A stretch of 64,000 bases of DNA from Acholoe squamosa (Eukaryota > Annelida > Polychaeta > Phyllodocida > Polynoidae). How positions within the stretch are numbered: the first letter of the stretch is position 1; every line of letters begins with the position of its first letter. This document shows positions 12,805 to 43,445 of this stretch, in pieces. Both the position numbers and the translations under genes were made by a program. The notes under the pieces were generated by a model. That model ran no database searches. It saw only the letters and a program-made list of their open reading frames with translations, and was not told the origin of the DNA. The stretch spans positions 9,767,141-9,831,140 of the forward strand of contig OX439044.1 in assembly GCA_949317995.1 (NCBI GenBank). The letters run 5' to 3'.

Positions 12805-13229
12805 GTATTGAGGTTTGATGGCTACTTGATGGTTAGGGAATATCCAGCTCTATAGTAAAGGTTTACTCCTGAGTGTGTGCTCCTAAAGTCTCCTATGCTG
12901 TACCTTAAGCTTACTCCTATATATATATAGTTCCTTAAGTAGAGCTCCCCTTTGTCCCATTCAAGACCAGTGAGAGGCTTTTCAAGAACCACTTATTTAT
13001 TCACAGGTTAGTGTAATCATGCAAGATAAAGGTGCACTTATGGCTATTAAATATAGTACTTAGCTGGCATACAGTGGTAGGAGAGAGTGGTGGTGGTCTT
13101 AACTCCAGGCCTGCTCTGCTTCAAGTGTGTATAGTATACACACAGTGGCCTAACCTGCCCACTGTGGTAACTAGGCTTATCCAAATCCCGCGAGACCTAA
13201 CCCTTGCGGTGCTGGTGTTGGCCTTAAGA
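12805..13229 (-). repeat. 3' LTR of element B
   Basis: It shares its full length with 32361-32783. On the minus strand it carries a palindrome around GTATACTATAC, a TATA-like TATATTTAAT, an AATAAA signal and a TATATATATA run. The first bases are TCTTAAGG, where the 5' LTR has TGTTAAGG. It is preceded by a G-rich polypurine tract and followed by sequence of element A. Confidence 0.85.
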
Positions 13230-13245
13230 CTACCCCCCCCATCCA
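13230..13245 (-). promoter_or_regulatory. Polypurine tract of element B
   Basis: The minus strand reads GGATGGGGGGGGTAG just before the LTR. This marks 12805-13229 as the 3' LTR of a minus-strand element. A duplicate lies at about 11275-11289. Confidence 0.7.
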
Positions 13246-13584: not shown

Positions 13585-13893
13585 TTATCTAAAATAATTA
13601 TTTTTCAGGAGCTCGCTCCCCTTGTGCCGTCCCGGGCGCTGCCTCTCCTCCTCGCGAACCCGATATAGGCGGTCCTGTCGGTTGATCCAGGAGAGGAATC
13701 CCCTTCCGACCGCCCTTTCCCGCTCGATAGGTGCCCAAATGATCTTGCCGTTTCTGTCAAGCGGGCGACACACGTTCACCGGGAGGTCGATCCGTCGGGG
13801 GCCAAGCACCACTGGCCTCGGCCGCTGGGTTTGTTGGGGCTCCGGGACGTCCGGGCAGTTTTTTGGGAGCTGAAGTGGCAAGGTGTCATACAT
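13585..13893 (-). CDS. Small basic ORF (102 codons) at the 3' end of element B
   Basis: It has an ATG at 13893, twelve bases after a run of about 14 A residues. The product is rich in Arg, Pro and Glu, without a signal peptide, membrane segment or recognisable motif. It lies between env and the 3' LTR, where accessory genes of retroviruses can sit. The AAAATAATTATTT stretch at its 3' end departs sharply in composition from the GC-rich body, so the last six codons may lie outside the original coding unit. It could be non-coding. Confidence 0.4.
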   Translation of the reverse strand: MYDTLPLQLPKNCPDVPEPQQTQRPRPVVLGPRRIDLPVNVCRPLDRNGKIIWAPIERERAVGRGFLSWINRQDRLYRVREEERQRPGRHKGSELLKNNYFR

Positions 13894-13904
13894 TTGAGAG
13901 AAGT

Positions 13905-14400: not shown

Positions 14401-17400
14401 CTAGTCTGAATCGAAGTCAGACGCTGAGGAGTATTTGAGGCGCCGCTTATCGTCTGCCTCTGCTCCTCGGAGGGATCTGTACCCACCTTTACGATCCTTA
14501 TGGTAGTCTGGCACATGTATGTCTGGGGCCGACGGGGCCAATGCCATGGCCCCCTCTGGGTCCATGGAGGTCTGTCCTTGATGATAGGGCGGGGGCTTAA
14601 CCTTGAGGACCATTTCCCCTGTGGTTAGGGAAGAGGCAGAGGCTGTTTCGGCTACTTCCCTCCTTTTTCTGTCTTCCCTTCTGGCCATTCGGTTTAAGCC
14701 TGACAACACGTCTATGGGTAGGGGGTCTGTTGACTCCGGCATTCTACTGATGGGGAGGGAGGATGACCTTAATCTCTCGGCCAATCCTCTGTCTACTATG
14801 ACAGCTGAATAGGTAGCAATGTTAACCCTTCCATTCTGGAACCTGTATAGCTTCAAGCCCGCCCACCAAGGCAATGCCATGTGGGTAGGGAGATACATGG
14901 TGGTATAATGCATCCCATCCGTTCTACAAATGGGTCCGTCCCAGGACATCCGCAAAGAGTAACCAAGGAATGATCTTTCTACTCTGAGCTGGCTTATCCG
15001 GGGTACTTTAAAGAAGGTCTGATCGTCCATCTTCGTGAGATACTCGTGAAGACGGACGGTCTCATGTACCTCAGGGGAGCCTATCTTCAACAAAACCTTC
15101 ATCCCTGGCAGGGACTCGACCATGTTGCCTATAGCCCCTGAGTCACACATTCGTTTACAAAAGGAACCCTTCTTTGCCCATAAGTATTTCACAATTTTTG
15201 CGGCAATGAATACGCAAAAGACAAATGCCGCCACCTCTGACATTGTGTCTAGGGTCATGATATTATCCTCGAGCAATGAATCCTCATTGTAGGTTGTAGT
15301 TGTCGTCGGCAGTGCCTCGAGCTTGTTTCTTTTTGGCATTGCCAAGGTGTCACCAATTTTGGAATAAACTGCCACTGCGACGGTTAGCTTTCTCATGGTT
15401 CTAGCCATTCTAAAAAGAACTATGCCTTTGATTGCTACTAGAATTGTTAGTGCTACTAACCAGATCCAGATGGAGGGATCGGCTAGTGAGGTGGCCTGAT
15501 AGTACATTTGTGTAAGCCAGTTCTGTCTGGCTTGCTCCTCCCTTTCTTTGGCCTTTTCGTGGAGCTGATTTGCTAAAACATGGAGTGGGACCCCGGCGTC
15601 TAAGGGGATGGAACTATTTCCATACAAGTCCTCAAGGGATGGAAGGGAGAGGGTATATGTGTCATTACTCAGGTCCGACATAAGGAAATCTTGGGGGAGG
15701 TCTAGGTTAAACAGGCTGGTAAGGGGAATATTTATTCCTTGTACGGACTGTACGACCGAAACATTCGAGCACGCTGTAGGGTCTGGGTAGACTGACCGGT
15801 CCTGTGTTGTTATCACGCAGTCACAAGGGAGAGTGACCAGGCAAATGCCACACTCGATAGTGTTTGTGGATAGGCATGTGACGTCTACCCTATGCGTGTC
15901 GGTAATAAGCAAAACCTTCGAGTGAGGGAGTTTTCTGATATAGAGTGGGGCTTTGGTTCTGGGAAAAGCCATATGCGTGCATAGCTTCGCGGCTGCGGCC
16001 ACGTCATTTGTAAAGATGGCATAAATGCAGCTTGGGTCGTGCGTCGGCACCTCATTAGGGACTGCCAGACATTGCAGGAAGTCTTTTCCGAAGCAGTTTT
16101 TGCGGTCATTTTCGTCTATCTCAATGAACCGATCAGTTCGGCGGGACACTGCCAACATACTTGCTGTGGTCTGTACCTTGGTGTATGCCCTAAAATCTTC
16201 GGACTGGGATGGTATGCCCAAGGTGCGTACGTCATACAAGGTATACCATGCTGTGTCCTTGGCTACTGGTATGCGAACGTGGACATAGAATGACTTTTCG
16301 CTGTACAGGAAGGTCGTGGTGACATGAGTATAATAGAAGCTGATAGATGAGTGAACTAGGAGCAGCCCTCTGCGGCCTGCCTGTTTAGCAATTCTTTTGA
16401 TGACCTTTTCGAGATCGCTCGGGGGAACGAGACTGGGGGTGAGATAACCCTGCTTTGCTGCTTCCACATCTGCTAGAAGCTTCGTGTATTCCATGATGTA
16501 GTTATCTATCGCTCTGAACTGCATGGTATATACTGTGATGAATCGCATCACCCCCTCCAGAAACGTAAAATGTCGGTTCGTCTTGGAGGTGGAGTTGTAC
16601 AGGCTTACGAGTGCAGCTGAATTAAGGAGTGTCGCCTCCTTGATGCGGTGGACATGCTTAAATATGTCCTTAGACAACTTATCTAAGGCCTCGGCAGTGG
16701 TATCTGCCACTTTTGCCATGTCGTCCGCAAGGTCTACGGTGTCCCTTTGGGAACGCATCAGCTTGTTATGTAATTCTGCTATTTTATTCGATAGGTGTTT
16801 TACGTCGTCCGTTGTGGCTGTACCGAAGAGAAAAGAGGAAACGTAGCCAATTGCATTTACCAGACCACGTGCGATGCGTGAGGTGCGTGGGTTCTCGGGA
16901 GACGGGAAAAGGATTTCCCCATTGTGAAACACTATCTTAAGTTCGGCCTTTAGACTATCATAAATTTCCCTTATATTCTGAAAGATGGGCAGAAATGGAG
17001 TGCAGGGCCTGAAGTTTGAGCATCGTATACCCCACTGACTGGATAGATCGGGGAGGTCAAGGGGCTCTGGCCGTGGGATTACTATGACCGCGTCATAGAA
17101 TTTGTGCTCGGCCAGGAAATGTTGTGGGAGTTCTTCGAAGAGGACTCCATAGTTCTGCCTAATTATAATATTCTCTATTGGTTCTACTTCAGGGTATGGG
17201 ATGTCCATTTCTTCATAAACATTCTGATGATCATCGGCTATGACTGAGAACGGGGACGGTGTTGTGACGTCCCGCGGGTGGTATAGGGGGGGTCGGGTCT
17301 GGCGTGGGCGGTGCAAAGGGGACGGAGATCGGCGGAGATGGTAGAAAGGATTCGGGGCCCTAGTGGTTGGGTGGGACCGGACAGAGAGAGCCTGGCCCAG

Positions 17401-17442
17401 GACCGTCGCCCAGACAATACATGTTAACAGTTTGTGTACCAT
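14401..17442 (-). CDS. env: Envelope glycoprotein, baculovirus-F / errantivirus-like
   Basis: The ATG at 17442 (context ACCATGG) gives 1013 residues. The reading frame stays open 38 codons further upstream, but without an ATG. A hydrophobic signal peptide covers residues 1-21. An RIAR motif near 189-192 is followed by a Gly/Ala-rich hydrophobic segment and a FGT motif, the arrangement of the cleavage site and fusion peptide in baculovirus F and Gypsy envelopes. A helical heptad-rich region and several Cys-rich stretches follow. A membrane span lies at about 658-678 and a second hydrophobic segment at about 735-754. The C-terminal part after the first span is some 330 residues, unusually long, and carries a PPPY motif. 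A possible splice acceptor (pyrimidine-rich, ...TTCCAG) lies at about 17460-17476 just upstream, fitting expression from a spliced RNA. No break is visible. Confidence 0.85.
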   Translation of the reverse strand: MVHKLLTCIVWATVLGQALSVRSHPTTRAPNPFYHLRRSPSPLHRPRQTRPPLYHPRDVTTPSPFSVIADDHQNVYEEMDIPYPEVEPIENIIIRQNYGVLFEELPQHFLAEHKFYDAVIVIPRPEPLDLPDLSSQWGIRCSNFRPCTPFLPIFQNIREIYDSLKAELKIVFHNGEILFPSPENPRTSRIARGLVNAIGYVSSFLFGTATTDDVKHLSNKIAELHNKLMRSQRDTVDLADDMAKVADTTAEALDKLSKDIFKHVHRIKEATLLNSAALVSLYNSTSKTNRHFTFLEGVMRFITVYTMQFRAIDNYIMEYTKLLADVEAAKQGYLTPSLVPPSDLEKVIKRIAKQAGRRGLLLVHSSISFYYTHVTTTFLYSEKSFYVHVRIPVAKDTAWYTLYDVRTLGIPSQSEDFRAYTKVQTTASMLAVSRRTDRFIEIDENDRKNCFGKDFLQCLAVPNEVPTHDPSCIYAIFTNDVAAAAKLCTHMAFPRTKAPLYIRKLPHSKVLLITDTHRVDVTCLSTNTIECGICLVTLPCDCVITTQDRSVYPDPTACSNVSVVQSVQGINIPLTSLFNLDLPQDFLMSDLSNDTYTLSLPSLEDLYGNSSIPLDAGVPLHVLANQLHEKAKEREEQARQNWLTQMYYQATSLADPSIWIWLVALTILVAIKGIVLFRMARTMRKLTVAVAVYSKIGDTLAMPKRNKLEALPTTTTTYNEDSLLEDNIMTLDTMSEVAAFVFCVFIAAKIVKYLWAKKGSFCKRMCDSGAIGNMVESLPGMKVLLKIGSPEVHETVRLHEYLTKMDDQTFFKVPRISQLRVERSFLGYSLRMSWDGPICRTDGMHYTTMYLPTHMALPWWAGLKLYRFQNGRVNIATYSAVIVDRGLAERLRSSSLPISRMPESTDPLPIDVLSGLNRMARREDRKRREVAETASASSLTTGEMVLKVKPPPYHQGQTSMDPEGAMALAPSAPDIHVPDYHKDRKGGYRSLRGAEADDKRRLKYSSASDFDSD

Positions 17443-17556
17443 GGTCGTGTTCTCAGCCACTGGAACAAAAGGTTGGTTTATTTGCTTACCGCCTGTTGTT
17501 GATAATGCGCGACAACCTGACCTAGGCCGGTGGTAGTACTTATCTATGCAATGCAC

Positions 17557-20282: not shown

Positions 20283-23200
20283 TCATTTTATAGCCTTGGG
20301 CAGGACGTCCCCCTCAATGAAGCGCTTCCTGGCCGCCTCATTCAGGGACGTAACGGGGACCCATTCCTCCTTTCCCCCCACAAAAGTCACCTTGACACGG
20401 GCCACGCCTTGTGCCCTATCTATGTCGGTAACCTTTTCAATTTCTACCGGAATTTCTATTCCCTCCTCGTTTTTCACAAAGGCCATTGGGGTCCTTCTAC
20501 TGATGCGAGATCCGGCAGGCCTGTCTGTGGCCCCCATGTTCGCACTGGTCTTGAGACTCAGTGGCTTATGGGGTGTATCGTTTGTGGCGGGGTATTGTTG
20601 CGTCTTATTGTTTTGAGGTTCTACTGTCTCTCCATCATCCCCTTTTCTCTGCATAGCTTCCTCTGCTACTTCGGCGAAGCTGTCCGGGGGCAGGTCTGTT
20701 GCGTCGAGTCCGGGCACGTCGTCGGGTATCAGCCTGTATTTCCGTATGTCTGACGAGCCCATTTTTTTCAGTCTGGCCACCGCGACGGGTTTTGTAATAT
20801 ACTTACCTGTCGTCACATCCTTCAGGTACACCGTAGTATCCGTGTGGAATTTCAGGATAACGAACGGGCCCTGGAAAATCTTTGCCAGTTTCAGTTTTTT
20901 GGATAGGCCTTGCACCCGTGGGACATAGACCCATACCAGGTCTCCCGAAGACAGTGGAGCTTCATAGGCTTTTAGGTCGTACCTTGCCTTCATCTTTTCT
21001 GCGCTCTCTTTTATGGCGGCCGTCGCCTGTACATGCGCTTGATGTTGGCAATCGAGATTGTCGGCAAAATGCTGAGCAACCGACCTAATAACGTTAGACG
21101 GGTTTGGCAGCTGATTCATATCAGGGAGGATAGGTTCGAACCCATGGAGCAGCAGGTAGGGTGAGACCCCCGAAGACGCGGCCTTGGAACTATTTAAGGC
21201 GAAAGAGAGAGGGTCCAAAAGAAGGTCCCAATTCCTCTGATCTTCATCCACATAGGCTCTGATAATGTTGAGGATGCTTCTGTTAAACCTCTCCACCAAG
21301 CCATTGGACTGCGGATGCAAGCTTGAGCTTAGCCTGTGCTGGATGCCAAAATAGGCCGTGAATTCTTTCCATGCTGCTGATATAAAGCACGAGCCATTAT
21401 CGCTCACCATAGTGTGGACCGACCCGAGCTTGTAAACCACATTCCCGGCAAAGTGCTGTATCAGCGTGGCCGCTTGCAAATCTTCCTGGCTCCAGCACAC
21501 CACGAAGCGTGAATAATAATCCACCATGACAAATATATGCTTCTGCTTTCGTGGTGTCTCGGGCAACCGCTCCAGATAATCAATGTTTACACAGTACAGC
21601 GGACGCGGACTGGCGTCCCTTAGAGTCAATGGCGGCCGATATGGATGTGTAGCTCTCTTGGTGGCACAACATATTTCGCACGACTGAATGTAATCCTTCA
21701 CGTCCTTAACCATACCCCTCCAAAACACTGTCTTTCTCAGCTTCCCCATCATTTTATGCAGGCCGACATGTCCACTATGTGGGGCGTCGTGGCTCTGCTG
21801 AAGGAAATGGAGCTGTAGGCTCCGTGGCGCGACGAGCCGTACCTCCAAGTCGGCTCTTCGGACAGCAGGGAGAGAGAATCGGAAAAGGATATCGTCGTAA
21901 ATGAAATAATCTTCCTCCGAGAGGACAATGTGTCTAGCCAGCTTGCGGTCCTCTGGGAGTTCCCCCCTCTGGATGAAGAGGCGCACGCTCGCGCAGAATT
22001 CGTCCCTCTTTTGCGCCTCAACCACTTCCTGTGGGCTCAGGGATACTAATCCGACAACCTCCAAGGCCTTCCCATTGGCTACCGCCTTATGCTTCTGACG
22101 CCTTTTACGCGTTATGGGGTACGGCGTCTTAACTTGCTCTATAGCTGCCTGTGTTAATGCCGTGTCCTCGGCCACATCATGAGTGGATGTTTCCACCGCC
22201 TCTTTCTGTTGTCCCGATTTGTTATGTGACGGATCACCAAGGGGAGTCCTGTCCTTATCTATGGGGACATATATCCTGCTCCAAAAATCGGGGACTACAT
22301 TGTCAGCCCCTGGCACATGGCGGATAATAAACTGGAAATGCTGCAGATAGTCCACCCACCTAAGCACCTGTGCTGACGACCCTAGGTCTTTGGACAGGAT
22401 ACGGGATATAAGGGGCTTGTGGTCGGTGTGGATCTCGAAGCACTTACCTTCAAGGTATACTTTATAATTTTTTACAGAGTGGAAGATGGCCGCCAATTCC
22501 TTGTCAACCGCGGCGTACCGCGTCTCCGCATCTCTAAAAGGTTTTGCCCAGAATGAAACGGGTCTCAGGTTACCGTCTTTGTCTTCTTGTGATAGAACTG
22601 CCCCGATACCCCAGTCGCTAGCGTCTGTAGCGAGGACAAAGGTCTTGGTAAAGTCGGGGTACATCAGAAGGTTACTACTTGTTAGCATCCTGCGGATAGA
22701 CTGAAAGGCGTCTTCCTGAGCGTCCCCCCATACGAAGGGAGTATCCTTCTTGGTAAGGTCATAAAGGGGCTGCGCCACTTTGGCATATTTTGGCATAAAC
22801 TTCCTGTAATAACCTGAGAGCCCGAGGAAGCGACGGACCCTGCGGACCGTATTTGGGCGCGGAAGTTCTATCAGCTTTTGGATATTATCGGGCGACGGGG
22901 AAACCCCGTCGGTGGTCAGTATGTGACCAAGAAATTTTATCTTATTGCGCCCAATGTCACACTTGGATGGCTTCAACACCAGATTGGCCTGGATGACACG
23001 GTCGAGTACTTCGGCCAAGTCGTCCATGTGCTGTTCAAACGACGAGCTCCACACTATTATGTCATCCATATAGGCGAGACATTTTTTGTACCTCAATCCG
23101 GATAGGACCAGATCGACCATTGATTGGAACGTTGCCGGGCTATTGACCAAACCCATAGCGAGACGTCTGTATCGGTACTTTCCTGACTGGGTCAAGAAAG

Positions 23201-25325
23201 CTGTTAACTCCCTACTGCCTTCTTCCATCTCTATCTGGTGAAACCCCATTTCTAAATCGAGCGCGGGGAAATAGCGGGGGCGGGTCTCGCCCACGGCGTC
23301 AATAATCTGGTCTATTCTAGGGATGCACACTGTCTTAGGGACTGTGCTTTGGTTAACCCGTCTAAAATCTACCACGAGACGGAAGCCACCATTCTTTTTC
23401 TTCACTAGGAAGGCAGGGGAGGCCCATGCGCCGCCCCCTCCTTCCTCTAGTATTCCCTTATCTAGCTGATCCTGTACTACCTTATCCATCTCCCGTTGCA
23501 TGGGAGGGGCCATTCTATATGGCTGAGACATGACTGGCTTGGCACCTGGTACCAAGTCTATCCTATGCCTCACAAGATGGGTATGACCGAGCTCGCCCTT
23601 GACGGCAAAAGCAGGGCGCTTGCTCTCTAGCATTTTCATACAAACCTCTTTCTCTTCTTCAGTAAAAACGGATTCGGACAAGTCTATGGGTAAAGGCTTT
23701 TCTTGATCTAACTCTTTCCCCTCTAGGTACTCATCTTCCTCTTCCTCGTACGTCAGAGTACATTTCAGGTCCCCCTCTTGTGATGTCTGCGGCTGACTAC
23801 CTACATTATCGTGCCGCTCAACTGCTGAGGTCTCTACTTGTACCACGCCCATGTTTATATCCCTAGGTATCATGTTTGAATAGTTTCCCACTACTGTTCC
23901 CCTCTTAAGGACCCTTTCCCTGGAGGCGAGGTTAATAAGTTTAACTGGCACCGACCCGTGGTCAATCCGCACCAGAGCCGTCTTAACTGCCCGGCAGTCG
24001 AATTGCCTAATAGACGGTGCAGCATTAAAAATTCCCTCTTGGCCATCCCATACATCAGGCCCCAACAATACCTGTCCCTGGAGATATGCCTCTGACCTAC
24101 CAGGTAGAACTACCTCTGACTCTAACCTAACTGGTACTGTCCTATCTATCTTGTGGGAATCTGAAAAGTTTAAGGTCATTGAGAAGTCCCTTAGAAAAGA
24201 TCTGCCCAGAATCAATTCATTAGAGAGATTTTCCAGAACGTGAAACAAAACTGTATACTTATGCCCGTCAATAAATATAGGAAGGGTGACGTCACATATA
24301 GCCTTCTGCCTTGCACTGTTGGCCATGACGCAGCTGATGGTACTGTCCTCTACTACGGCACCAACCGCTTGCAGGTCAAGGGCCCTGAAGGTTGCTGCAT
24401 TCATTACGCTCTCGCAGGCGCCGCTGTCAATGAGAGTCTTGAAGTGTCTGTCTCCGACCCTGACCATCGTGCATCCACTGTCGGTGAGGCTATGTGTCAC
24501 GATCTCCCTACGACCCCCAGCGGTTGAAGGCACCTGGTGGAACATCTGTATGGCCTTACTGTCTGATTCGTACTGACATTGCTGACATACGAGGGCCTTC
24601 AATAGGCCGGCCGTCTGGGGCAGGGCATGAGATGTCTTATCGTCGAGGAACCGTTGCACCTCACCTTTGTGCAGCAAGTGTGATCCGCCGGGTGAGCATG
24701 CCGGTTGCCGCCTACAAATGGACGGGACCTGATGTTGATTTATGCAGTCAGCTGAGGCTTGAGCCGTAGCACGTACACAGTCCTGTTCATCTACACAGTT
24801 CGCCTCGTCACACTCTATCTCATGCCGCAGCGCTGCATGAAGAACTATTTCGAGTATAATGTGGCGCAGACTATTTATACAGTGCCCGTCTACTATATGA
24901 CAGTTACACATTGGTATCCAGCTGCCCTCTGGATCCATTGTCATGAGACAGATACATGAATTGGGGCAATGGGCACAGTCAAATTTCACGCCAGAATGTT
25001 TGTTATTATCCGAGGGCTGCGGGAGATGTTTTTGCTTCCTGGAGACCGGAGGCGGTCGCAGAGGGTGATTTTTATACAGTTTCTCAACCAGCGCTAACTT
25101 CCAACCCTCCATGCGTGGCCGGCCTTCTATGTCCGTCATAGCTGTACTGACGACCGGGGCGCCCAGTGCCCGCACGTCTTTTTCTATACACAAGTCTTCA
25201 ATTACAGGTTTATACACGCCTTCCAGATCAATATTGGCCAACGACCAAGGGATCCCGCTGGCGTATCCGTATAAGGGGGATTCCTTACCGCCATCCTCTC
25301 TGTTTACCACCTCGTTATCTTCCAT
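20283..25325 (-). CDS. pol: Pol polyprotein of element B (protease, RT, RNase H, integrase)
   Basis: 1680 codons from the ATG at 25325, uninterrupted. Residues 1-280 are an unusual N-terminal region with many Cys. The protease motif DSGA is at 300-303. The reverse transcriptase has YMDD at 752-755. RNase H acidic residues are at D901, E943 and D968. The integrase zinc domain uses H1179, H1186, C1216 and C1219; its catalytic triad is D1249, D1309 and E1345 with 35 residues between the last two. A GPF motif is near 1485. After it the protein continues for about 190 residues, ending in a compact basic/beta-rich segment (1622-1665) that could be an SH3/chromo-like fold. The pol frame is open upstream of the ATG back to the gag stop, consistent with synthesis as Gag-Pol by -1 frameshifting. 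The domain order places it in Ty3/Gypsy. Confidence 0.93.
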   Translation of the reverse strand: MEDNEVVNREDGGKESPLYGYASGIPWSLANIDLEGVYKPVIEDLCIEKDVRALGAPVVSTAMTDIEGRPRMEGWKLALVEKLYKNHPLRPPPVSRKQKHLPQPSDNNKHSGVKFDCAHCPNSCICLMTMDPEGSWIPMCNCHIVDGHCINSLRHIILEIVLHAALRHEIECDEANCVDEQDCVRATAQASADCINQHQVPSICRRQPACSPGGSHLLHKGEVQRFLDDKTSHALPQTAGLLKALVCQQCQYESDSKAIQMFHQVPSTAGGRREIVTHSLTDSGCTMVRVGDRHFKTLIDSGACESVMNAATFRALDLQAVGAVVEDSTISCVMANSARQKAICDVTLPIFIDGHKYTVLFHVLENLSNELILGRSFLRDFSMTLNFSDSHKIDRTVPVRLESEVVLPGRSEAYLQGQVLLGPDVWDGQEGIFNAAPSIRQFDCRAVKTALVRIDHGSVPVKLINLASRERVLKRGTVVGNYSNMIPRDINMGVVQVETSAVERHDNVGSQPQTSQEGDLKCTLTYEEEEDEYLEGKELDQEKPLPIDLSESVFTEEEKEVCMKMLESKRPAFAVKGELGHTHLVRHRIDLVPGAKPVMSQPYRMAPPMQREMDKVVQDQLDKGILEEGGGGAWASPAFLVKKKNGGFRLVVDFRRVNQSTVPKTVCIPRIDQIIDAVGETRPRYFPALDLEMGFHQIEMEEGSRELTAFLTQSGKYRYRRLAMGLVNSPATFQSMVDLVLSGLRYKKCLAYMDDIIVWSSSFEQHMDDLAEVLDRVIQANLVLKPSKCDIGRNKIKFLGHILTTDGVSPSPDNIQKLIELPRPNTVRRVRRFLGLSGYYRKFMPKYAKVAQPLYDLTKKDTPFVWGDAQEDAFQSIRRMLTSSNLLMYPDFTKTFVLATDASDWGIGAVLSQEDKDGNLRPVSFWAKPFRDAETRYAAVDKELAAIFHSVKNYKVYLEGKCFEIHTDHKPLISRILSKDLGSSAQVLRWVDYLQHFQFIIRHVPGADNVVPDFWSRIYVPIDKDRTPLGDPSHNKSGQQKEAVETSTHDVAEDTALTQAAIEQVKTPYPITRKRRQKHKAVANGKALEVVGLVSLSPQEVVEAQKRDEFCASVRLFIQRGELPEDRKLARHIVLSEEDYFIYDDILFRFSLPAVRRADLEVRLVAPRSLQLHFLQQSHDAPHSGHVGLHKMMGKLRKTVFWRGMVKDVKDYIQSCEICCATKRATHPYRPPLTLRDASPRPLYCVNIDYLERLPETPRKQKHIFVMVDYYSRFVVCWSQEDLQAATLIQHFAGNVVYKLGSVHTMVSDNGSCFISAAWKEFTAYFGIQHRLSSSLHPQSNGLVERFNRSILNIIRAYVDEDQRNWDLLLDPLSFALNSSKAASSGVSPYLLLHGFEPILPDMNQLPNPSNVIRSVAQHFADNLDCQHQAHVQATAAIKESAEKMKARYDLKAYEAPLSSGDLVWVYVPRVQGLSKKLKLAKIFQGPFVILKFHTDTTVYLKDVTTGKYITKPVAVARLKKMGSSDIRKYRLIPDDVPGLDATDLPPDSFAEVAEEAMQRKGDDGETVEPQNNKTQQYPATNDTPHKPLSLKTSANMGATDRPAGSRISRRTPMAFVKNEEGIEIPVEIEKVTDIDRAQGVARVKVTFVGGKEEWVPVTSLNEAARKRFIEGDVLPKAIK

Positions 25326-25567
25326 GATGTCGGTTTGCTGGAGGCAGTCATATCCGACATCTTGGAAGTCGCCTATGTCATTGTATGACCTCTTTTCACC
25401 CTGAGGTCCGCTATCTGATGTTTCGAGTGGAGGGAACGCACTGCGGTCCTTAGACTGTCCATTACTCCCTTTATAACAGTAGGATTGGTCGTTGGCTGAT
25501 ACCCTTCGCTCTTCTGATGGTCCTATGGGTCCCCTATACTGAAGGGTTTGCTCGCGGGGACCCCATC

Positions 25568-25831
25568 CTAGTTTCCCTGCTGGGAAGAAGAGCTCATGTT
25601 CAAGAGTTCGTGTGCTAAGTTTCTTATCGACTCCCTGGAAAGGGAATTTACCTGCGGGGGTCCTTGGTGGTACACGCCTTGCTGGACTTGGCCGTAAGAG
25701 AGGCCAGGTTCAGTGGGCCACCCTGACCCATTCTGACCTTGTCTGTCCGAATAGCGACCGTCACGTCTGTTTCCGTATAAGGGGGATTCCTTACCGCCAT
25801 CCTCTCTGTTTACCACCTCGTTATCTTCCAT
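25568..25831 (-). pseudogene. Chimeric pol-start / gag-end frame made by duplication T2
   Basis: 87 codons: the first 20 from pol's N-terminus, the rest a second copy of the Gag C-terminus, ending at the same stop with its own slippery heptamer (25571-25577). It is a by-product of the duplication and not an ancestral gene. Confidence 0.75.
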
Positions 25832-26032
25832 GATGTCGGTTTGCTGGAGGCAGTCATATCCGACATCTTGGAAGTCGCCTATGTCATTGTATGACCTCTT
25901 TTCACCCTGAGGTCCGCTATCTGATGTTTCGAGTGGAGGGAACGCACTGCGGTCCTTAGACTGTCCATTACTCCCTTTATAACAGTAGGATTGGTCGTTG
26001 GCTGATACCCTTCGCTCTTCTGATGGTCCTAT

Positions 26033-26083
26033 GGGTCCCCTATACTGAAGGGTTTGCTCGCGGGGACCCCATCCTAGTTTCCC
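26033..26083 (-). promoter_or_regulatory. -1 programmed frameshift signal at the gag-pol junction
   Basis: On the minus strand the last sense codons of gag form the heptamer G GGA AAC (plus 26077-26083), directly followed by the TAG stop (26074-26076). Seven nucleotides downstream of the heptamer an 8-bp stem, GGGTCCCC with GGGGACCC (plus 26062-26069 with 26033-26040), encloses a 21-nt loop. The -1 frame entered here is open into pol. A heptamer of type X XXY YYZ plus a downstream stem is the classical retroviral arrangement. A second copy of the heptamer is at 25571-25577. Confidence 0.8.
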
Positions 26084-27519
26084 TGCTGGGAAGAAGAGCT
26101 CATGTTCAAGAGTTCGTGTGCTAAGTTTCTTATCGACTCCCTGGAAAGGGAATTTACCTGCGGGGGTCCTTGGTGGTACACGCCTTGCTGGACTTGGCCG
26201 TAAGAGAGGCCAGGTTCAGTGGGCCACCCTGACCCATTCTGACCTTGTCTGTCCGAATAGCGACCGTCACGTCTGTTTCCGTCCCGGAAACTTCCTCTGT
26301 TACCTCTGTAGCCACCGTTACCTCTTCGCCCATTTCCTCGGCCCCCAGAGCGCTGGGCGGACGTAATGTTTGGGCAGCCGGACCGGAAATGGTCGCCTCC
26401 ACATTCCCAACATTGTACTGAGCGCCGCTGAGGCTGGGATTGCTGTTGCTGGTAGTCCTGCTGGTTCTGGGAGTATTGCGACGAGCCCTGGGATTGGTCG
26501 CCCGAAGGCAGGGCATAGTGTGTTGTTGCTTGCCCCGAACCCTGGCGCGTAGCGTTGACTTGAATCAAATTAGAATTGGCTTTTGCCACATCAAGGACGG
26601 ACAAGACGTTTGTGCTAATGACCTCCATTCCATCATGCACAGTGCTTTGGAGACTCTTCATGTGGGATTCTAATGTATCGAGCCTTTCGGTGTTCTGGTG
26701 GCTAGCGCGGAACGACTCGTAGGCTGTCTGCGCTGCTGACGCTAGCGCGGTTAAGTCATTAAACTGTTCCAAGTCAAGAGTCTCTCTCACAGATGGGAGG
26801 AGACCGTCTTTGTAGATTCGGCGTATATCTGCCGGCTGCGTTTTACCGGCTTGCGAGCATACCTTTAGAACGCGTCGGCAAAACTCGTGCGCATCCTCGC
26901 CTGGCTTCTGTGACAAGGCCCTGATCATCGAGTGGATCTTTTCTTGACTGGGACCAGTGAGATTGAGGAGGTGCGTCTTTGCCTCCTGCCAATTGTTGAT
27001 ATCCTGAATGAAGGCAAAAATGTTGGGTGGGAGGTGGGTCGGCAGCTGGCGAAGCTTTTCGGCCGGGAGATCGGCGTCTCCATAGACCTTCTGGATGAAA
27101 TTTTCAAAGTTTCTCACCCACTCGATAGCTCGGAGCGGCTCGTCTACAGGGAAGTCGCCCGGATGGAGCGATTTAAACACCCGCCTTGCGGCGTCAATGT
27201 GACGCATCTGCTGGCGTGCTTCCTCCATGTCTGCTGCCAGGGGGTTGTGAACAGGGTCAGGTGGAAAGAGTTCCTGACCCTCGTCTATGGGAGGCAAGAG
27301 TGGTGGATTATTGCCGCGGGGTGCCCGGCGTGCGTGTAAGCGTAGGTGTTCGTGGGCAATGGGGAACGGGAGGTGGGCTAGGTTGTCTCTTATTAGGCCC
27401 CTCTCTGCTGCTTCCCTCCTCCTGGCTTGTCTCCGTATTATTTCTTGTTCGTTGAAGATGTGTTGCGGGAGCTCGGCTAAGTCCTGCTGGACATTTCTCT
27501 GCCTTTCCCTCGTCTGCAT
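26074..27519 (-). CDS. gag: Gag polyprotein of element B
   Basis: 481 codons from the first ATG at 27519. The frame is open upstream through 27570 to the TAA that ends the zinc-finger ORF. The N-terminal part is helical and charged. A capsid region (about 120-270) carries a major-homology-like stretch around QKPGEDAHEF. A Gln/Ser-rich linker leads to one zinc knuckle, C370-x2-C373-x3-H377-x4-C382, one residue shorter than the standard C-x2-C-x4-H-x4-C. An Arg/Gly-rich nucleocapsid tail follows. The last codons overlap the frameshift site. The coding sequence is intact. Confidence 0.9.
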   Translation of the reverse strand: MQTRERQRNVQQDLAELPQHIFNEQEIIRRQARRREAAERGLIRDNLAHLPFPIAHEHLRLHARRAPRGNNPPLLPPIDEGQELFPPDPVHNPLAADMEEARQQMRHIDAARRVFKSLHPGDFPVDEPLRAIEWVRNFENFIQKVYGDADLPAEKLRQLPTHLPPNIFAFIQDINNWQEAKTHLLNLTGPSQEKIHSMIRALSQKPGEDAHEFCRRVLKVCSQAGKTQPADIRRIYKDGLLPSVRETLDLEQFNDLTALASAAQTAYESFRASHQNTERLDTLESHMKSLQSTVHDGMEVISTNVLSVLDVAKANSNLIQVNATRQGSGQATTHYALPSGDQSQGSSQYSQNQQDYQQQQSQPQRRSVQCWECGGDHFRSGCPNITSAQRSGGRGNGRRGNGGYRGNRGSFRDGNRRDGRYSDRQGQNGSGWPTEPGLSYGQVQQGVYHQGPPQVNSLSRESIRNLAHELLNMSSSSQQGN

Positions 27520-27570
27520 GTGGTGGTAAGATAACCCCACTGGTCGCTTAGGACAATCGTGGCCGTCCCT

Positions 27571-28122
27571 TTAAGCTTTGCACTTCTTGAACCTCTTACT
27601 CTGTGGGCCGCGATGGCAATGGTTCTTAAGATGCCCGCCTATGTAATCTGACCTTTTCCTGAAGTGCTTGCCGCAATCCTGGCATCTATAACTTCCAACA
27701 GTATGCTCGACTTTTCTATGTCTAGACAGGTTTGACTGATAAGAGTAGGCCACTCCACATATGTCACATAGGAAATGGCCCCGTCTCTGCCTTAGAGGGG
27801 TCTCTTTCACTGTGGTCCGGGGGCGCCTTGGCGATGTTGCGCCTCGTGTGCTACCAGTGCCAGCCTTTCGGTGTTCTACCCTTATGCCCTGTACTACCTC
27901 TACTTTTACCCTTTGGGTTGCGGTCGGGACACATAGGCCAACAAGTGGTAACTGTTGTGTCTGAGATCCTTGCTCTTTTGTTTCTATCGGTTCTGTCTGG
28001 GCTTGCGCGGTATCGGTCGCGACTGCCCTAATCAAGAGGGGTACCGACAGTGTGTTATTCAAATCATGAATCCTCTTGACGAGCTTTTCTTCGACTTTTG
28101 TGTATGCCTGATGGCTGTCCAT
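27571..28122 (-). CDS. Two-finger C2H2 protein of element B (copy adjoining gag)
   Basis: 183 codons from the ATG at 28122. The first ~115 residues are low in recognisable features, with Gln/Thr-rich and Arg-rich parts. Near the C-terminus are two zinc-finger modules: C-x2-C-x12-H-x4-H, then C-x2-C-x13-H-x3-H. The tail is strongly basic. It stops with TAA at 27571-27573, and gag continues in the same frame after the stop. C2H2 pairs bind DNA or RNA; a role in regulation, packaging or targeting is possible but inferred. It is identical at protein level to the copy at 28781-29332. Confidence 0.75.
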   Translation of the reverse strand: MDSHQAYTKVEEKLVKRIHDLNNTLSVPLLIRAVATDTAQAQTEPIETKEQGSQTQQLPLVGLCVPTATQRVKVEVVQGIRVEHRKAGTGSTRGATSPRRPRTTVKETPLRQRRGHFLCDICGVAYSYQSNLSRHRKVEHTVGSYRCQDCGKHFRKRSDYIGGHLKNHCHRGPQSKRFKKCKA

Positions 28123-28143
28123 TGGCGACAATGATATGTGACC

Positions 28144-28242
28144 CTAGAGACTGTGGATGCTACTGGCAAGGAGGTGAACGCTGGGCACTGTTTGGTCAGT
28201 GTCGTCCCTATTCGACTCGAGTCCCGACGGGGAGACTCTAAA
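28144..28242 (-). pseudogene. Detached C-terminal tail of the pseudokinase (T3 copy a)
   Basis: This repeats the last ~33 codons of the Tribbles-like ORF, which are fused at 28242/28243 behind the truncated gag copy. There is no start of its own. Confidence 0.75.
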
Positions 28243-28729
28243 GGTGGGTCGGCAGCTGGCGAAGCTTTTCGGCCGGGAGATCGGCGTCTCCATAGACCTT
28301 CTGGATGAAATTTTCAAAGTTTCTCACCCACTCGATAGCTCGGAGCGGCTCGTCTACAGGGAAGTCGCCCGGATGGAGCGATTTAAACACCCGCCTTGCG
28401 GCGTCAATGTGACGCATCTGCTGGCGTGCTTCCTCCATGTCTGCTGCCAGGGGGTTGTGAACAGGGTCGGGTGGAAAGAGTTCCTGACCCTCGTCTATGG
28501 GAGGCAAGAGTGGTGGATTATTGCCGCGGGGTGCCCGGCGTGCGTGTAAGCGTAGGTGTTCGTGGGCAATGGGGAACGGGAGGTGGGCTAGGTTGTCTCT
28601 TATTAGGCCCCTCTCTGCTGCTTCCCTCCTCCTGGCTTGTCTCCGTATTATTTCTTGTTCGTTGAAGATGTGTTGCGGGAGCTCGGCTAAGTCCTGCTGG
28701 ACATTTCTCTGCCTTTCCCTCGTCTGCAT
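28243..28729 (-). pseudogene. Truncated gag copy made by duplication T3
   Basis: It is the same sequence as the first ~160 codons of gag, with a stop created at the duplication junction (28238-28240). It lacks most of the capsid and the zinc knuckle. If translated it would give an N-terminal Gag fragment. Confidence 0.8.
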
Positions 28730-28780
28730 GTGGTGGTAAGATAACCCCACTGGTCGCTTAGGACAATCGTGGCCGTCCCT

Positions 28781-29332
28781 TTAAGCTTTGCACTTCTTGA
28801 ACCTCTTACTCTGTGGGCCGCGATGGCAATGGTTCTTAAGATGCCCGCCTATGTAATCTGACCTTTTCCTGAAGTGCTTGCCGCAATCCTGGCATCTATA
28901 ACTTCCAACAGTATGCTCGACTTTTCTATGTCTAGACAGGTTTGACTGATAAGAGTAGGCCACTCCACATATGTCACATAGGAAATGGCCCCGTCTCTGC
29001 CTTAGAGGGGTCTCTTTCACTGTGGTCCGGGGGCGCCTTGGCGATGTTGCGCCTCGTGTGCTACCAGTGCCAGCCTTTCGGTGTTCTACCCTTATGCCCT
29101 GTACTACCTCTACTTTTACCCTTTGGGTTGCGGTCGGGACACATAGGCCAACAAGTGGTAACTGTTGTGTCTGAGATCCTTGCTCTTTTGTTTCTATCGG
29201 TTCTGTCTGGGCTTGCGCGGTATCGGTCGCGACTGCCCTAATCAAGAGGGGTACCGACAGTGTGTTATTCAAATCATGAATCCTCTTGACGAGCTTTTCT
29301 TCGACTTTTGTGTATGCCTGATGGCTGTCCAT
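28781..29332 (-). CDS. Two-finger C2H2 protein of element B (copy adjoining the pseudokinase)
   Basis: It starts at the ATG at 29332, 21 nt after the kinase's TAG (29354-29356) and in the same frame as the kinase. It has the same two fingers and basic tail as the copy at 27571-28122. Tight spacing on both sides (kinase upstream, gag downstream) indicates that the ancestral order was kinase, zinc finger, gag. Confidence 0.75.
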   Translation of the reverse strand: MDSHQAYTKVEEKLVKRIHDLNNTLSVPLLIRAVATDTAQAQTEPIETKEQGSQTQQLPLVGLCVPTATQRVKVEVVQGIRVEHRKAGTGSTRGATSPRRPRTTVKETPLRQRRGHFLCDICGVAYSYQSNLSRHRKVEHTVGSYRCQDCGKHFRKRSDYIGGHLKNHCHRGPQSKRFKKCKA

Positions 29333-29353
29333 TGGCGACAATGATATGTGACC

Positions 29354-30343
29354 CTAGAGACTGTGGATGCTACTGGCAAGGAGGTGAACGCTGGGCACTG
29401 TTTGGTCAGTGTCGTCCCTATTCGACTCGAGTCCCGACGGGGAGACTCTAAACCAGGGGTGACACAGGATTTCTTCTGCCGTCAGGCGCTCCTCAGGTGT
29501 TCTCCTTAAGAGACTGCTGATCAGGCACTTGGCTCTATCGCTGACTGTGTCTGGGATGTGATATTCGCCGCGGCCTATCTTGCTGAACAGGGCGCTGAAT
29601 TCAGTGTCGTGAAAAGGGTAGCGCCCAATGAGCAAAGTATATAGGGCCACGCCCAGACTCCACACGTCTGCTGCCTTACCGGAGTACGGTCCCTGGGTGT
29701 TGAGGATCTCTGGGCTCACGTAGGCAGGACTGCTCTGCTTGCCGTCTAGTCGGTCATCCTGGCCATCTTCTAGCACAAGGGAATCCTCCAAGTCTACCAA
29801 CTTCAACGCGGTTCTTGCCTCATCTTTGAAGGCGAACTTACGCAGCTTAAGGTTCGGAAGGAGGACCCCTCTTTGATGGCAAGCGGCAACAGCTGAGACG
29901 ATTTGGTAAAACAAGTGGATAGCTTTTTTCTCACTCACCTTCTTTCTGTCCCGTATAAAAGAGTGCAAATTCCCGTGGTTCTGAGGGAAGAACACATAGG
30001 CCAGGGTCTCCCCTATTAGTATTTCCTCTATTTGGTCTACGTGCTCGTGAAAATCGACCCTCCGATATGCTGAAAATGTCTCTTCATATGACGACGCCGG
30101 GAGGACCTTACATAAGTATTCCTCCCCAGTCCAGGAGAGAATGGACTTACAAATGCGAACGCCCCCTACGGTGTCTTGGTGCTCTAATAACAAATAGCCC
30201 CCTATTTGACTTACGGCCAAGCCGTCACGATCATCACCTAGCTTGCTGTCCTCTGACACGCGTGGGGAATTTGGATGTAAGCCCTGGTTGAGGTCCACCC
30301 CTTCCAGGTTGGGCGACTGAAGGTGAGTACTAGGCGTCGTCAT
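29354..30343 (-). CDS. Tribbles-family pseudokinase carried by element B
   Basis: 329 codons from the ATG at 30343, the first ATG after an upstream in-frame stop; no intron. Residues about 45-298 form a kinase domain most like animal TRIB proteins. K79 is the beta-3 lysine. The catalytic-loop motif LKLRKF typical of Tribbles is present, with N164 where active kinases have the catalytic Asp. DLE (184-186) replaces DFG. The AYVSPEIL and YSGKAADVWSLGV motifs follow. The domain ends in a HPWF motif, and the tail keeps a DQTVPS motif (313-318) resembling the COP1-binding motif of TRIB proteins. Tribbles proteins are scaffolds linking substrates to the COP1 ubiquitin ligase and MEK/AKT signalling. 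It sits between B's leader and gag, which implies capture of a host cDNA. A host retrocopy hit by chance is the alternative. Confidence 0.88.
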   Translation of the reverse strand: MTTPSTHLQSPNLEGVDLNQGLHPNSPRVSEDSKLGDDRDGLAVSQIGGYLLLEHQDTVGGVRICKSILSWTGEEYLCKVLPASSYEETFSAYRRVDFHEHVDQIEEILIGETLAYVFFPQNHGNLHSFIRDRKKVSEKKAIHLFYQIVSAVAACHQRGVLLPNLKLRKFAFKDEARTALKLVDLEDSLVLEDGQDDRLDGKQSSPAYVSPEILNTQGPYSGKAADVWSLGVALYTLLIGRYPFHDTEFSALFSKIGRGEYHIPDTVSDRAKCLISSLLRRTPEERLTAEEILCHPWFRVSPSGLESNRDDTDQTVPSVHLLASSIHSL

Positions 30344-30700
30344 ATGAAGGAAGGGGGGGAATAAGCGGATTCTCTATGTCGAAACTCTCATTTCATGTGG
30401 GAGCGGGGGTTATTGCAGTTGACCTCGGAAGTATAGCCTCCTAGTTTGCCGAGTTAAGAACACTTCGATCCCATGAGTGATTGGAGAATTTTGGATAGAA
30501 GGTTCTAAAAATCCCAGAGGGCATCAATACCTAGTCCTAAAAGACGGCATTCCAACTATGAAAAACACTTCCCATGCATTTTAGGTTCGAGTTGACATTA
30601 TATGCTAGTGGTGTCCTACCCTCTAGCAATATGAGTTAAGTCTATAAATGTTCAAAGTTAGTTCCCAGGTTTTAAATAGAGGCTAAGTATGGTGAGTCGA

Positions 30701-31000
30701 ATTGTTCCTATCTACTACCGGTGCGCTGAGACTGCACCAACATACTACTCGCTTTTAGCGTGTAATGTGCACATGGATTGTTCTTATATACTACCGGTGG
30801 GCTGAGACTGCACCAACGTACCACTCATTTTTGCCATGTAATGTGCGCATGGATTGTTCTTATATACTACCGGTGCGCTGAGGCTGCACCAACATACTAC
30901 TCGTTTTTACCATGTAATGTGCACATGGATTGTTCTTTTATACTACCGGTGCGCTGAGGCTGCACCGGCATACTCCCCACCTTTCCTGGAAAATGGTTCA
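30701..31000 (-). repeat. Four 76-bp tandem repeats in B's leader
   Basis: Units start at 30701, 30777, 30853 and 30929, exactly 76 bp apart, the last one incomplete. Each contains CTACCGGTGCGCTGAG followed by CTGCACC, which can form a small GGTGC/GCACC hairpin, and an ATGTGCACAT-type palindrome. The position after the 5' LTR corresponds to that of the insulator repeats in Drosophila gypsy. Confidence 0.85.
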
Positions 31001-32348
31001 ATGGGAACGTTCCTCCGTTTTACATTAGAAATGTTCTTATTGGCAGTACAGTTTTCATTATCAGTGTTCATTTGCCATCCATTGATGATACTACTCCTTA
31101 ATGGCTATGACGAATGTAGGGTTTGGCTTACCGTGGACTTGTGCTCGCTGGATGCTCTAGGCAGTAGGGGCCACACCTGGATAATACTTAATCAGAATCT
31201 TTATATCCACATTATCATATACTGGTTATCATATAAGCAATTGCGGATGAAGTGTCATACTTGTGGTTCATACTGTGTGGCCCAGTGTTGTCAGGTGCCC
31301 TGCGCTACTACCTACAAGATGTTGATACTGTCAGGCAGATTGTACCAATAATCATGTAAAATTCTGTTGCTGTTTTTCTTTTGTTAGAAGGTCAGGCTGG
31401 GAAAGGGTGTGGGGGGGGGGGGTGGACTTCCAGTGGGCAATTGCTATGGTACAGTGTTTATATCGTACCATCTCCAAGGCCCCAACTACTGTGTACTGGT
31501 GACATGCAAAATTCATATACGCAAATTCCAAATAATCACCTGCCTAGAGCATAAGAATATTCCAGTTGGAGAGGTGATACTGACGGATTAGTTGATAAAT
31601 CTGCATAGGCTATATTGCTATGCACATTGAAACCACTATCTATCAACTGAGAAGTCGCTATAACTTGGGGCTTTGCCTTAACCTTAACCATTACACTGAT
31701 CCCAAAGTTATTAAAAGTTCCAACTTGGATTGGCTGTAGCTCGCTTAATAATAGGTCTTTTTTTTCCCTGATTTCGCTGAGACGTAGCTTAATATCTCAG
31801 CTGTAAACTGAGACCCTAAGAGCCTAGAAATTCTCCTTATTAGTGGGAGTAATCGTCGACGATAGACGACGACGCGTTACGGTAATTCCAACGGTTTTTG
31901 TTTTTTTTGCATACTATTGTGAATTTACTAGCAGGTTCTGGCCTTAACACTTCTAGGGCACTACTGGGGACTACTTCGTCTACATCCTCACGGAAAGAAG
32001 CTGTTTTTGGAGCATTGTTGAGGTGTAGGGGGGCTCTCAAAGTCAACTCCCCACATGAAAATTTTTAAAGGAAAAAGTTCATAAAAGTCTTAGAATTCCA
32101 TGTATGGTGCAGATAAACATTTGGTATTCGTGCACTGCCTTTTGTAGAATAGTTAATGTAAGTTATGTGACTATCACACTTTGTCCTCTAAGCTGTGACC
32201 TTGTTGTTGCTTGGAGGACAAGGAATCCTAGACTTGTCCTAACATGCACAAACACACACACCACCAAACCAGCCCCTGCACACTCTTACCAAGTACAATA
32301 ACCATTTTGCAATCTTCACCTATGCATGCACACCAATTTATATTGTTT

Positions 32349-32360
32349 GGTTCTCCACCA
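32349..32360 (-). promoter_or_regulatory. Candidate primer binding site of element B
   Basis: Directly after the 5' LTR the minus strand reads TGGTGGAGAACC. The first nine bases match the complement of the 3' end of animal tRNA-Ala (...TCTCCACCA); the match stops there, so the assignment is weak. Confidence 0.4.
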
Positions 32361-32783
32361 GTATTGAGGTTTGATGGCTACTTGATGGTTAGGGAATATC
32401 CAGCTCTATAGTAAAGGTTTACTCCTGAGTGTGTGCTCCTAAAGTCTCCTATGCTGTACCTTAAGCTTACTCCTATATATATAGTTCCTTAAGTAGAGCT
32501 CCCCTTTGTCCCATTCAAGACCAGTGAGAGGCTTTTCAAGAACCACTTATTTATTCACAGGTTAGTGTAATCATGCAAGATAAAGGTGCACTTATGGCTA
32601 TTAAATATAGTACTTAGCTGGCATACAGTGGTAGGAGAGAGTGGTGGTGGTCTTAACTCCAGGCCTGCTCTGCTTCAAGTGTGTATAGTATACACACAGT
32701 GGCCTAACCTGCCCACTGTGGTAACTAGGCTTATCCAAATCCCGCGAGACCTAACCGTTGCGGTGCTGGTGTTGGCCTTAACA
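32361..32783 (-). repeat. 5' LTR of element B
   Basis: It starts TGTTAAGG on the minus strand and is nearly identical to 12805-13229. It contains a palindrome around GTATACTATAC, TATATTTAAT and AATAAA. It is flanked upstream by element A pol 3' sequence. Part of it (from about 32604) was copied to 35098-35275 by duplication T4. Confidence 0.85.
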
Positions 32784-32954
32784 CTTGTCTCAAACTAAGA
32801 GACAATCGCATGACTTCTCGTTGTGTAATTTTTTTATTCACCGTCGGCCTCACGTCCACAGACAGATTTACTCAAGAACGGCACCCGTTATTTTAAAGCC
32901 TCGTTAAAAACACAGGTTAGTAAAGCTGCTGCTTAGTATTGTGCGAAACATCGA

Positions 32955-35097: not shown

Positions 35098-35275
35098 ATA
35101 TAGTACTTAGCTTGCATACAGTGGTAGGAGAGAGTGGTGGTGGTCTTAACTCCAGGCCTGCTCTGCTTCAAGTGTGTATAGTATACACACAGTGGCCTAA
35201 CCTGCCCACTGTGGTAACTAGGCTTATCCAAATCCCGCGAGACCTAACCCTTGCAGTGCTGGTGTTGGCCTTAAC
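35098..35275 (-). repeat. Partial B LTR copied by duplication T4
   Basis: It matches 32604-32783. It ends abruptly at the T4 junction against the pol sequence TTCTCGAGA, so it is a by-product of the duplication. Confidence 0.8.
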
Positions 35276-35447
35276 ACTTGTCTCAAACTAAGAGACAATC
35301 GCATGACTTCTCGTTGTGTAATTTTTTTATTCACCGTCGGCCTCACGTCCACAGACAGATTTACTCAAGAACGGCACCCGTTATTTTAAAGCCTCGTTAA
35401 AAACACAAGTTAGTAAAGCTGCTGCTTAGTATTGTGCGAAACATCGA

Positions 35448-43442: not shown

Positions 43443-43445
43443 CTT

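Follow-up and report, generated by a model that had tools for sequence, protein, structure and literature searches.

Within a 64,000-nucleotide stretch of Acholoe squamosa DNA (the window; positions refer to it unless a contig of the source genome is named), an env-bearing Ty3/gypsy LTR element on the minus strand carries an open reading frame for a derived Tribbles pseudokinase between its leader and gag. We consider it probable that the lineage of this element (element B) captured a spliced Tribbles mRNA of the host lineage and kept it as an altered, non-catalytic adaptor. Counting for this reading are the Tribbles identity of the frame, seven related elements that lack it, the contrast between nearly identical LTRs and a far diverged cargo, and a retained COP1-type tail.

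Element B carries two extra genes ahead of gag

The Tribbles ORF (hereafter the cargo) occupies 29354..30343 on the minus strand, where its 329 codons run from ATG to TAG without an internal stop; its assignment draws on the frame itself, Pfam, PDB, homologues, introns and a tree. An earlier note, made from the sequence alone, had placed the ORF here and inside an env-bearing LTR element between leader and gag. We confirmed both points: the cargo lies within an LTR pair, on the sense strand of the element.

Element B, all of whose features lie on the minus strand, begins with a 5′ LTR (32361..32781) that is 99.3% identical to its 3′ LTR (12805..13227; tandem copy at 10852-11274). Read from the sequence, a primer-binding-site-like stretch (TGG..., 32349..32360) directly follows the 5′ LTR, and a polypurine-tract-like run of eight Gs (13233..13240) adjoins the 3′ LTR. 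A 2.0-kb leader (30344..32360), which includes a 76-bp tandem repeat at 30701-30974, precedes the cargo. To the earlier description we add a C2H2 zinc-finger ORF (28781..29341; 186 aa from a TTG, first ATG at 29332) that stands between the cargo and gag (26074..27540; first ATG at about 27519). The pol region (20283..25325) encodes protease, RT, RNase H and integrase in that Pfam domain order, and its open frame begins at 25709, overlapping the end of gag in the -1 frame. An env of the baculovirus F type follows (14401..17556; 1051 aa from a GTG; Pfam Baculo_F 8.1e-07), and downstream of it lies a 102-aa ORF of unassigned function (13585..13893). By eye, a similar ORF sits beside a B-type LTR on contig C4.

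The three best database pols were 45-49% identical to B pol across the whole alignment. Searches of a viral contig database returned no relatives of the cargo, of pol or of the pol alignment, and prokaryote genome contigs returned none of B pol. None of 8000 scored candidates in the env protein search exceeded the threshold, and an Rfam scan of the window gave 0 matches.

How the cargo might be expressed was addressed from sequence signals. The cargo, the zinc-finger ORF and gag share one frame, separated by TAG and TAA (an arrangement with chance odds of 1/9), and 12 nt separate the cargo from the zinc-finger ORF. RNA structure scores after the cargo stop, after the zinc-finger stop and near the end of gag (z of -0.70, -0.13 and +1.06) were all non-significant, so structures promoting readthrough or frameshifting are unsupported. 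Splice donors of the form GT[AG]AG numbered three in the 2-kb leader, within chance expectation. A simple rule found acceptor-like sites before the zinc-finger ORF (29372) and before env (17459), and none before the cargo or gag. Of nine genes used as codon-usage models for the cargo, B pol performed best, barely above even usage (-1.213 vs -1.225 per codon); codon usage carries next to no information on the cargo.

The zinc-finger ORF matches Pfam zf-C2H2 (5.9e-07) and ZNF568 in the PDB (5.8e-21). A homologue 34-37% identical over most of its length lies at 42.793 Mb of contig C18 (L046, C18:42791851-42795342) and immediately precedes a gag other than that of B (Retrotrans_gag 3e-07, zinc knuckle 2e-09). 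Because this homologue precedes a different gag, the zinc finger appears to serve as an accessory gene in at least two element lineages, and the region before gag in B looks like a slot for extra genes.

A 238-bp stretch of contig C5 (L045, C5:74558240-74558477) is 100% identical to the middle of the B zinc-finger ORF. The surrounding 3.3 kb held no other B sequence, and exon-like borders were unconvincing. With no other pieces near this stretch of identity, we dropped the idea that the zinc-finger ORF is a fresh host capture.

The insertion is young and lies within a duplicated composite

Across 423 aligned columns, one substitution and one 2-nt indel separate the two LTRs of B, and the gag, pol and env frames of the window copy are full-length and open. 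B is nested in an outer gypsy-type element, A, whose LTRs (6032-6503 and 42972-43443) are 98.7% identical; neither the 947-aa ORF in the gag position of A nor a 936-aa ORF of A matched Pfam. The window holds four near-perfect head-to-tail duplications (0.5-2.5 kb, 99.4-99.9% identical), all within the A/B composite (9998-13904, 25263-26282, 27032-29452 and 32604-37589). Two, of 506 and 1210 bp, lie within B, and two, of 1953 and 2493 bp, cross its borders. We found no target-site duplication at B (flanks ATCAGGTT / CACTTGTC); since both borders lie inside tandem duplications, its absence concerns this copy rather than the family.

The 1210-bp duplication (minus strand, 27032..29452, as 27032-28242/28242-29452, with one mismatch) covers the cargo tail, the zinc-finger ORF and the start of gag. 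It doubles the gag start and the final 99 nt of the cargo, and it accounts for a second, cut copy of the gag 5′ part at 28242-28750. This duplication may be real or an assembly artefact, and all four may be artefacts of assembly. These four duplications, two of them across the borders of B, and the missing target-site duplication are what one would cite for an assembly chimera that joined a Tribbles segment to gag. We regard such a chimera as extremely improbable, however: both tandem copies run without a break from the end of the cargo through the zinc-finger ORF into the gag start, similarity to seven related elements on the leader side extends to a sharp breakpoint, and none of the 66 TRIB matches in the source genome marked another locus from which the cargo could derive.

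The cargo is a derived descendant of a TRIB gene

The cargo matched the Pfam Pkinase family (E 4.2e-33), and its top four PDB matches were TRIB2 (7upm, 7.5e-92) and three TRIB1 chains, above all other kinases shown. A homologue search returned 751 sequences, with 59% the highest identity among the 120 listed. The best-scoring homologue was a pseudoscorpion protein with an internal duplication, which probably inflated its score.

Alignment to the 120 listed homologues bore out the Tribbles motifs named in the earlier note (an LKLRKF loop with Asp replaced by Asn, DLE, HPWF and DQTVPS). The cargo reads LPNLKLRKF where 118 of these homologues have L[RG]DLKLRKF, carries VDLED in the place of SLE/DFG, and retains HPWF. 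It ends in DQTVPS, a C-terminal VP-type COP1 motif; [DE]QxVP occurs within the last 60 residues of 111 of the 120. The residue after VP is Ser, not D/E, as it is in some homologues and in the host TRIB gene on contig C8. Where a typical Tribbles protein would have SLE or GLE and a retained DLK, the cargo has DLE and NLK; by closeness and nesting it belongs with Tribbles (TRIB2 and TRIB1 in the PDB, 100/100 support with host TRIB genes). By alignment and tree, then, the cargo is a descendant of a TRIB gene and a derived rather than typical member of the family.

The parent is a TRIB gene of the host lineage or a near relative

We searched the source genome (1.48 Gb, 63 contigs) for TRIB sequences and obtained 66 matches, among which the window copy alone was near identity. 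Two host TRIB loci, at C8:23.427-23.446 Mb and C14:5.335-5.352 Mb, were each detected as three exon pieces. Borders were read for the C8 gene, and its GT/AG intron borders sit exactly where the cargo runs on uninterrupted; the C8 introns are precisely absent, as in a spliced copy. Resemblance between the cargo and the C8 protein is seen at the start, in the stretch VSQ(I/V)G(G/D)YLLLE and in the DQTVPSV tail; a stretch of 14 residues near the start is missing from the cargo. The closest host TRIB is 65% identical to it at the protein level.

The phylogeny with the intron-bearing host gene that the earlier note had called for united the cargo with the C8 and C14 genes (100/100) and made it sister to the C8 gene (95/88). 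The three fell in an annelid-containing clade of 21 rows (93/98) whose only named member is Lamellibrachia; an earlier tree built from sequences other than the host genes had placed the cargo in an annelid-containing clade of 24 rows (99/98). AU tests of the cargo alone rejected no alternative placement (outside the annelid-containing clade, p 0.45; with molluscs, 0.20; with chelicerates, 0.20; with vertebrates, 0.096). An arthropod parentage, hinted at by the pseudoscorpion match, was dropped once the host's own TRIB genes settled the parentage of the cargo in the tree. Because the cargo groups with the C8 gene and lacks precisely its introns, its parent, by tree and junctions, is the host lineage's own TRIB gene (C8) or the orthologue of a near relative. 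The same junctions and support values favour the uptake of a processed host transcript by B, as the note had proposed. No run of A follows the cargo stop.

The capture appears old, and the cargo has evolved under purifying selection

Over 260 codons, the cargo and the C8 gene differ by a dN of 0.18 and a dS of about 1.2, compared with 0.055 and 1.07 between the C8 and C14 genes. Pairwise distances give the cargo branch a dN of 0.17 and a dS of about 1.3, a noisy estimate near saturation; with dS in this range, branch-specific values are rough. At the 142 codons identical in C8 and C14, the cargo shows 50.7 synonymous changes over 88.7 sites and 53.3 non-synonymous changes over 337.3, a ratio of 0.28, and overall the N/S ratio on its branch is about 0.13-0.28. 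About 35 stops would be expected per neutral substitution per site (3.5 per 0.1), and the cargo has 0; without selection, a frame is most unlikely to remain open across such a distance. Judged from these substitution patterns, purifying selection on the cargo is visible and is weaker than on the host TRIB genes.

The age of the insertion sets this divergence in context. Given a dS of about 1.2 and one substitution in 423 LTR columns, the insertion is far younger than the cargo divergence; by implication the cargo had already been evolving as an open gene, most simply within the element, when this insertion took place. The capture therefore appears old, and a late retrocopy into the present insertion is very unlikely. 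The general form of that alternative, a host retrocopy or chance neighbour with no role that was inserted as a processed TRIB pseudogene once this copy of B had integrated, could draw on the presence of the cargo in a single copy and on the loss of the TRIB region and gag start from the other B copy. It predicts near-identity to a host TRIB gene, however, against the observed 65% protein identity and dS of about 1.2 beside LTRs with one substitution. The intact ORF, an N/S below 1, the missing A-tail and the 12 nt to the next ORF also speak against it, and we hold it to be highly improbable.

Purifying selection in the past would also be compatible with a captured gene that was formerly useful and is now drifting, its lineage losing function. 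The cargo has lost 12 of the 96 most conserved columns, its end branch in the tree measures 0.75 against 0.015 for the C8 gene (about 50-fold), and its region is deleted in the B copy on C8. Yet there is no stop or frameshift, the N/S ratio of about 0.13-0.28 applies to the cargo branch itself, and several losses are concentrated at residues 163-164 and 201-205, within the catalytic and activation loops. We judge drift to be improbable.

Related elements lack the Tribbles ORF

A search of the source genome with B gag gave at least 39 matches, a lower bound because 89 of 545 candidates were scored. Among them we found a single further gag-bearing copy of B, at C8:51.8756-51.8769 Mb, with identities to B of 98-99% (LTR), 94.7% (leader), 97.9% (gag, with two stops) and 96-98% (the examined part of pol). 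In this copy a leader repeat meets gag at nt 162 of gag, across a CACC that both share; the deletion removes the leader end, the cargo, the zinc finger and the gag start, and leaves any prior TRIB content unreadable. The cargo is thus present in one of the two gag-bearing B copies found, the second having a deletion across the site.

Seven relatives (L011-L016, L018) are 70-74% identical to B over the first two thirds of gag and, where matched, 38-39% over the gag end (protein). They share the leader (about 30698-31399) with B at 93-96%, and this similarity breaks off at window position 30698. From the breakpoint, 313-314 nt of unrelated sequence lead up to the gag ATG in all seven; in B, this place is taken by about 2.0 kb holding the cargo and the zinc finger. 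No TRIB match lay near any gag match outside the window (66 TRIB and at least 39 gag matches). On this comparison, either B acquired the cargo or the other elements lost it once B and the seven relatives had split. A leader identity of 93-96% beside a gag identity of 70-74% suggests recombination between element lineages; the contrast could stem from a recombination event in the recent past, or the leader may be strongly constrained.

Searching with the B LTR gave 13 matches, four of them in the window, and pieces adjoining five of the other nine were examined. One of the five belongs to the second B copy on C8. B sequence was absent from 1.5 kb on one side of the C16 LTR and of the C3 LTR, and from 10 kb that follow the first of the two LTRs on C18. 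On C4 (C4:83826642-83838164), four B-type LTRs stand at 3.7-kb steps, and 1.5 kb of one interval consists of env and post-env pieces, perhaps marking a tandem array of the 3′ part of B.

Altered loops and a retained tail suggest an adaptor with changed substrates

To place the residue changes, conservation classes were set by 25 homologues outside the clade of the cargo. The cargo keeps 84 of the 96 most conserved columns and loses 12, whereas 23 rows of the clade lose 1-5. Relative to the 120 listed homologues, its losses include D125N, R163P, D164N (DLK to NLK) and P249F, and in the activation loop D201G, H203Q, G204S and C205S (DKHGC to GKQSS); HGC precedes PAYVSPE in 119 of the 120. Several of these losses fall together at positions 163-164 (catalytic loop) and 201-205 (activation loop).

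The earlier note had read the conserved tail as selection on the scaffold function. Our results uphold this in part: the cargo retains its tail and most of the strongly conserved columns, with a dN/dS under 1. An unchanged function does not fit so well, since the cargo no longer has the DLK Asp or the activation-loop residues and its branch is about 50 times that of the host gene, from which we infer that its function is probably altered.

Known targets of Tribbles proteins are Cdc25 and mitotic entry, C/EBP, and Akt. According to a review (PMC7923445), the V and P of the tail are critical to COP1 binding, and Cdc25 is degraded via Tribbles. Work on TRIB1 describes a C/EBP site formed by ordering of the activation loop and a COP1 tail released when SLE moves (PMC8235551). 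Lost loop residues combined with a kept tail suggest that the cargo acts as an adaptor with changed substrates.

Loop changes of this kind could instead have made the cargo a dominant-negative decoy that dimerises with host Tribbles and blocks it. Cdc25 and C/EBP would then be stabilised and Akt released, so that the cell divides or grows, an outcome opposite in sign to that of an adaptor. The changes from DLK to NLK, SLE/GLE to DLE and DKHGC to GKQSS are in keeping with this idea, as is a Drosophila report in which Gly at the Glu of SLE yields a stable, dominant-negative Tribbles, with Akt activity up and String and Slbo stabilised (PMC12070071). In the same report, however, the effect is specific to that one change: other Gly changes in the SLE motif and SLE/A behave as wild type, and a D/NLK change alone leaves the distribution like wild type (PMC12070071). 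The cargo retains both the Glu of the motif and the tail. We consider this main rival unlikely, and return to the adaptor reading.

In outline, an env-bearing Ty3/gypsy lineage would have taken up the spliced mRNA of the C8 gene or of a near relative's orthologue and come to hold the cargo and the zinc-finger ORF between leader and gag, with gag, pol and env retained. The putative non-catalytic adaptor would be translated from element RNA, would reach a COP1-type E3 ligase through its VP tail, and would pick other or fewer substrates than host Tribbles. The cell might thereby be tuned, for example in Cdc25 and mitotic entry, C/EBP or Akt, for replication or germline entry. Against this explanation stand the single cargo-bearing copy, a dS near saturation, the Ser after VP, the lack of significant RNA structure and of a target-site duplication, and uninformative codon usage.

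A second Tribbles carrier near telomeres

Beyond B and the host genes, a tandem pair of intron-less ORFs (about 39% and 34% identical to the cargo), present at about 20 places (for example L005-L008), accounts for 42 of the 66 TRIB matches. Matches to the first kind of ORF in the pair number 20: a contig start is no more than 190 kb away for 14 of them and a contig end for 3, one match sits 272 kb inside its contig, and the other 2 carry no contig-end distance. Contig C15, which has one such pair, starts with CTAACC telomere repeats. Over 3.8 kb, four compared copies of the pair-bearing element share 99.3-99.8% identity.

Near the pair at C15:20-60 kb (L021-L024), we identified a BIR protein (3.3e-07) and a 1086-aa helicase-like ORF (ResIII 2.5e-05; no match in a PDB search). 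A 792-aa glycoprotein ORF near this pair is 20% identical to B env (7e-14, two-sequence blastp), and Pfam placed no F family in it. The other long intron-less ORFs scanned in this region had no convincing Pfam match. Both pair proteins end in GDQVVP tails, and the tree did not place these Tribbles-like proteins closely. From its gene content and location, the pair-bearing element looks like an endogenous large DNA virus or a virus-derived element near telomeres.

We raise as a possibility, somewhat short of an even bet, that unrelated mobile or viral entities in one host genome have taken up Tribbles-like genes on two or more occasions: B from the C8 gene, and the large DNA-virus-like element found close to telomeres on many chromosomes as a tandem pair, both with VP-type COP1 tails. 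If true, hijacking of the Tribbles-COP1 route would be a convergent viral strategy, and B would be an infectious-type element with an adaptor re-aimed at new substrates.

Comparison with known captures

The cargo shares the pseudokinase domain, LKLRKF loop, HPWF and [DE]QxVP COP1-type tail of Tribbles proteins (TRIB1/2/3 and Drosophila Tribbles). It differs from them in NLK, DLE, the lost DKHGC residues, its encoding by a retroelement and a branch about 50 times that of the host gene. B resembles errantivirus-type env-bearing Ty3/gypsy elements in its LTRs, gag, PR-RT-RH-IN pol and Baculo_F env, but differs from other env-bearing Ty3/gypsy elements in having two extra ORFs (Tribbles and C2H2 zinc finger) between leader and gag.

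The best-known cases of host-gene capture come from vertebrate retroviruses; they are mostly recent and came at the expense of viral genes. Acute transforming retroviruses (v-src, v-akt) carry a spliced host signalling gene within a retroelement; unlike them, B keeps gag, pol and env, and its capture appears old and its cargo far diverged. Walleye dermal sarcoma virus encodes a retroviral cyclin and an ORF upstream of gag. Like B, it is a complex element that places an ORF ahead of gag and carries a host-like gene, here one of the cell cycle, but the gene is a different one and the virus is a vertebrate epsilonretrovirus. Crocodilian ERVs, as described in PMC4299795, captured KIT-ligand or nectin3 mRNA and thus, like B, carry a captured host mRNA; in the KIT-ligand case no ERV domain was lost and there are signs of purifying selection. 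Unlike B, these are vertebrate retroviruses with a ligand or adhesion protein rather than a Ty3/gypsy element with a pseudokinase. In titles and abstract openings of the CC-licensed PMC literature, we found no description of a Tribbles gene in a retroelement or virus, and the literature there on captured genes, errantiviruses and extra ORFs yielded no element with Tribbles cargo.

Element B thus combines, in an invertebrate gypsy-type element, a signalling pseudokinase that appears to be an old capture with open gag, pol and env, and its probable parent gene lies in the same assembly. It makes testable both the retrovirus-like evolution of accessory proteins in Ty3/gypsy elements and the Tribbles-COP1 route as a target of selfish elements. 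For the Tribbles family, the loss of the DLK Asp and activation-loop residues from the cargo amounts to a natural experiment on which parts of a Tribbles protein serve which functions.
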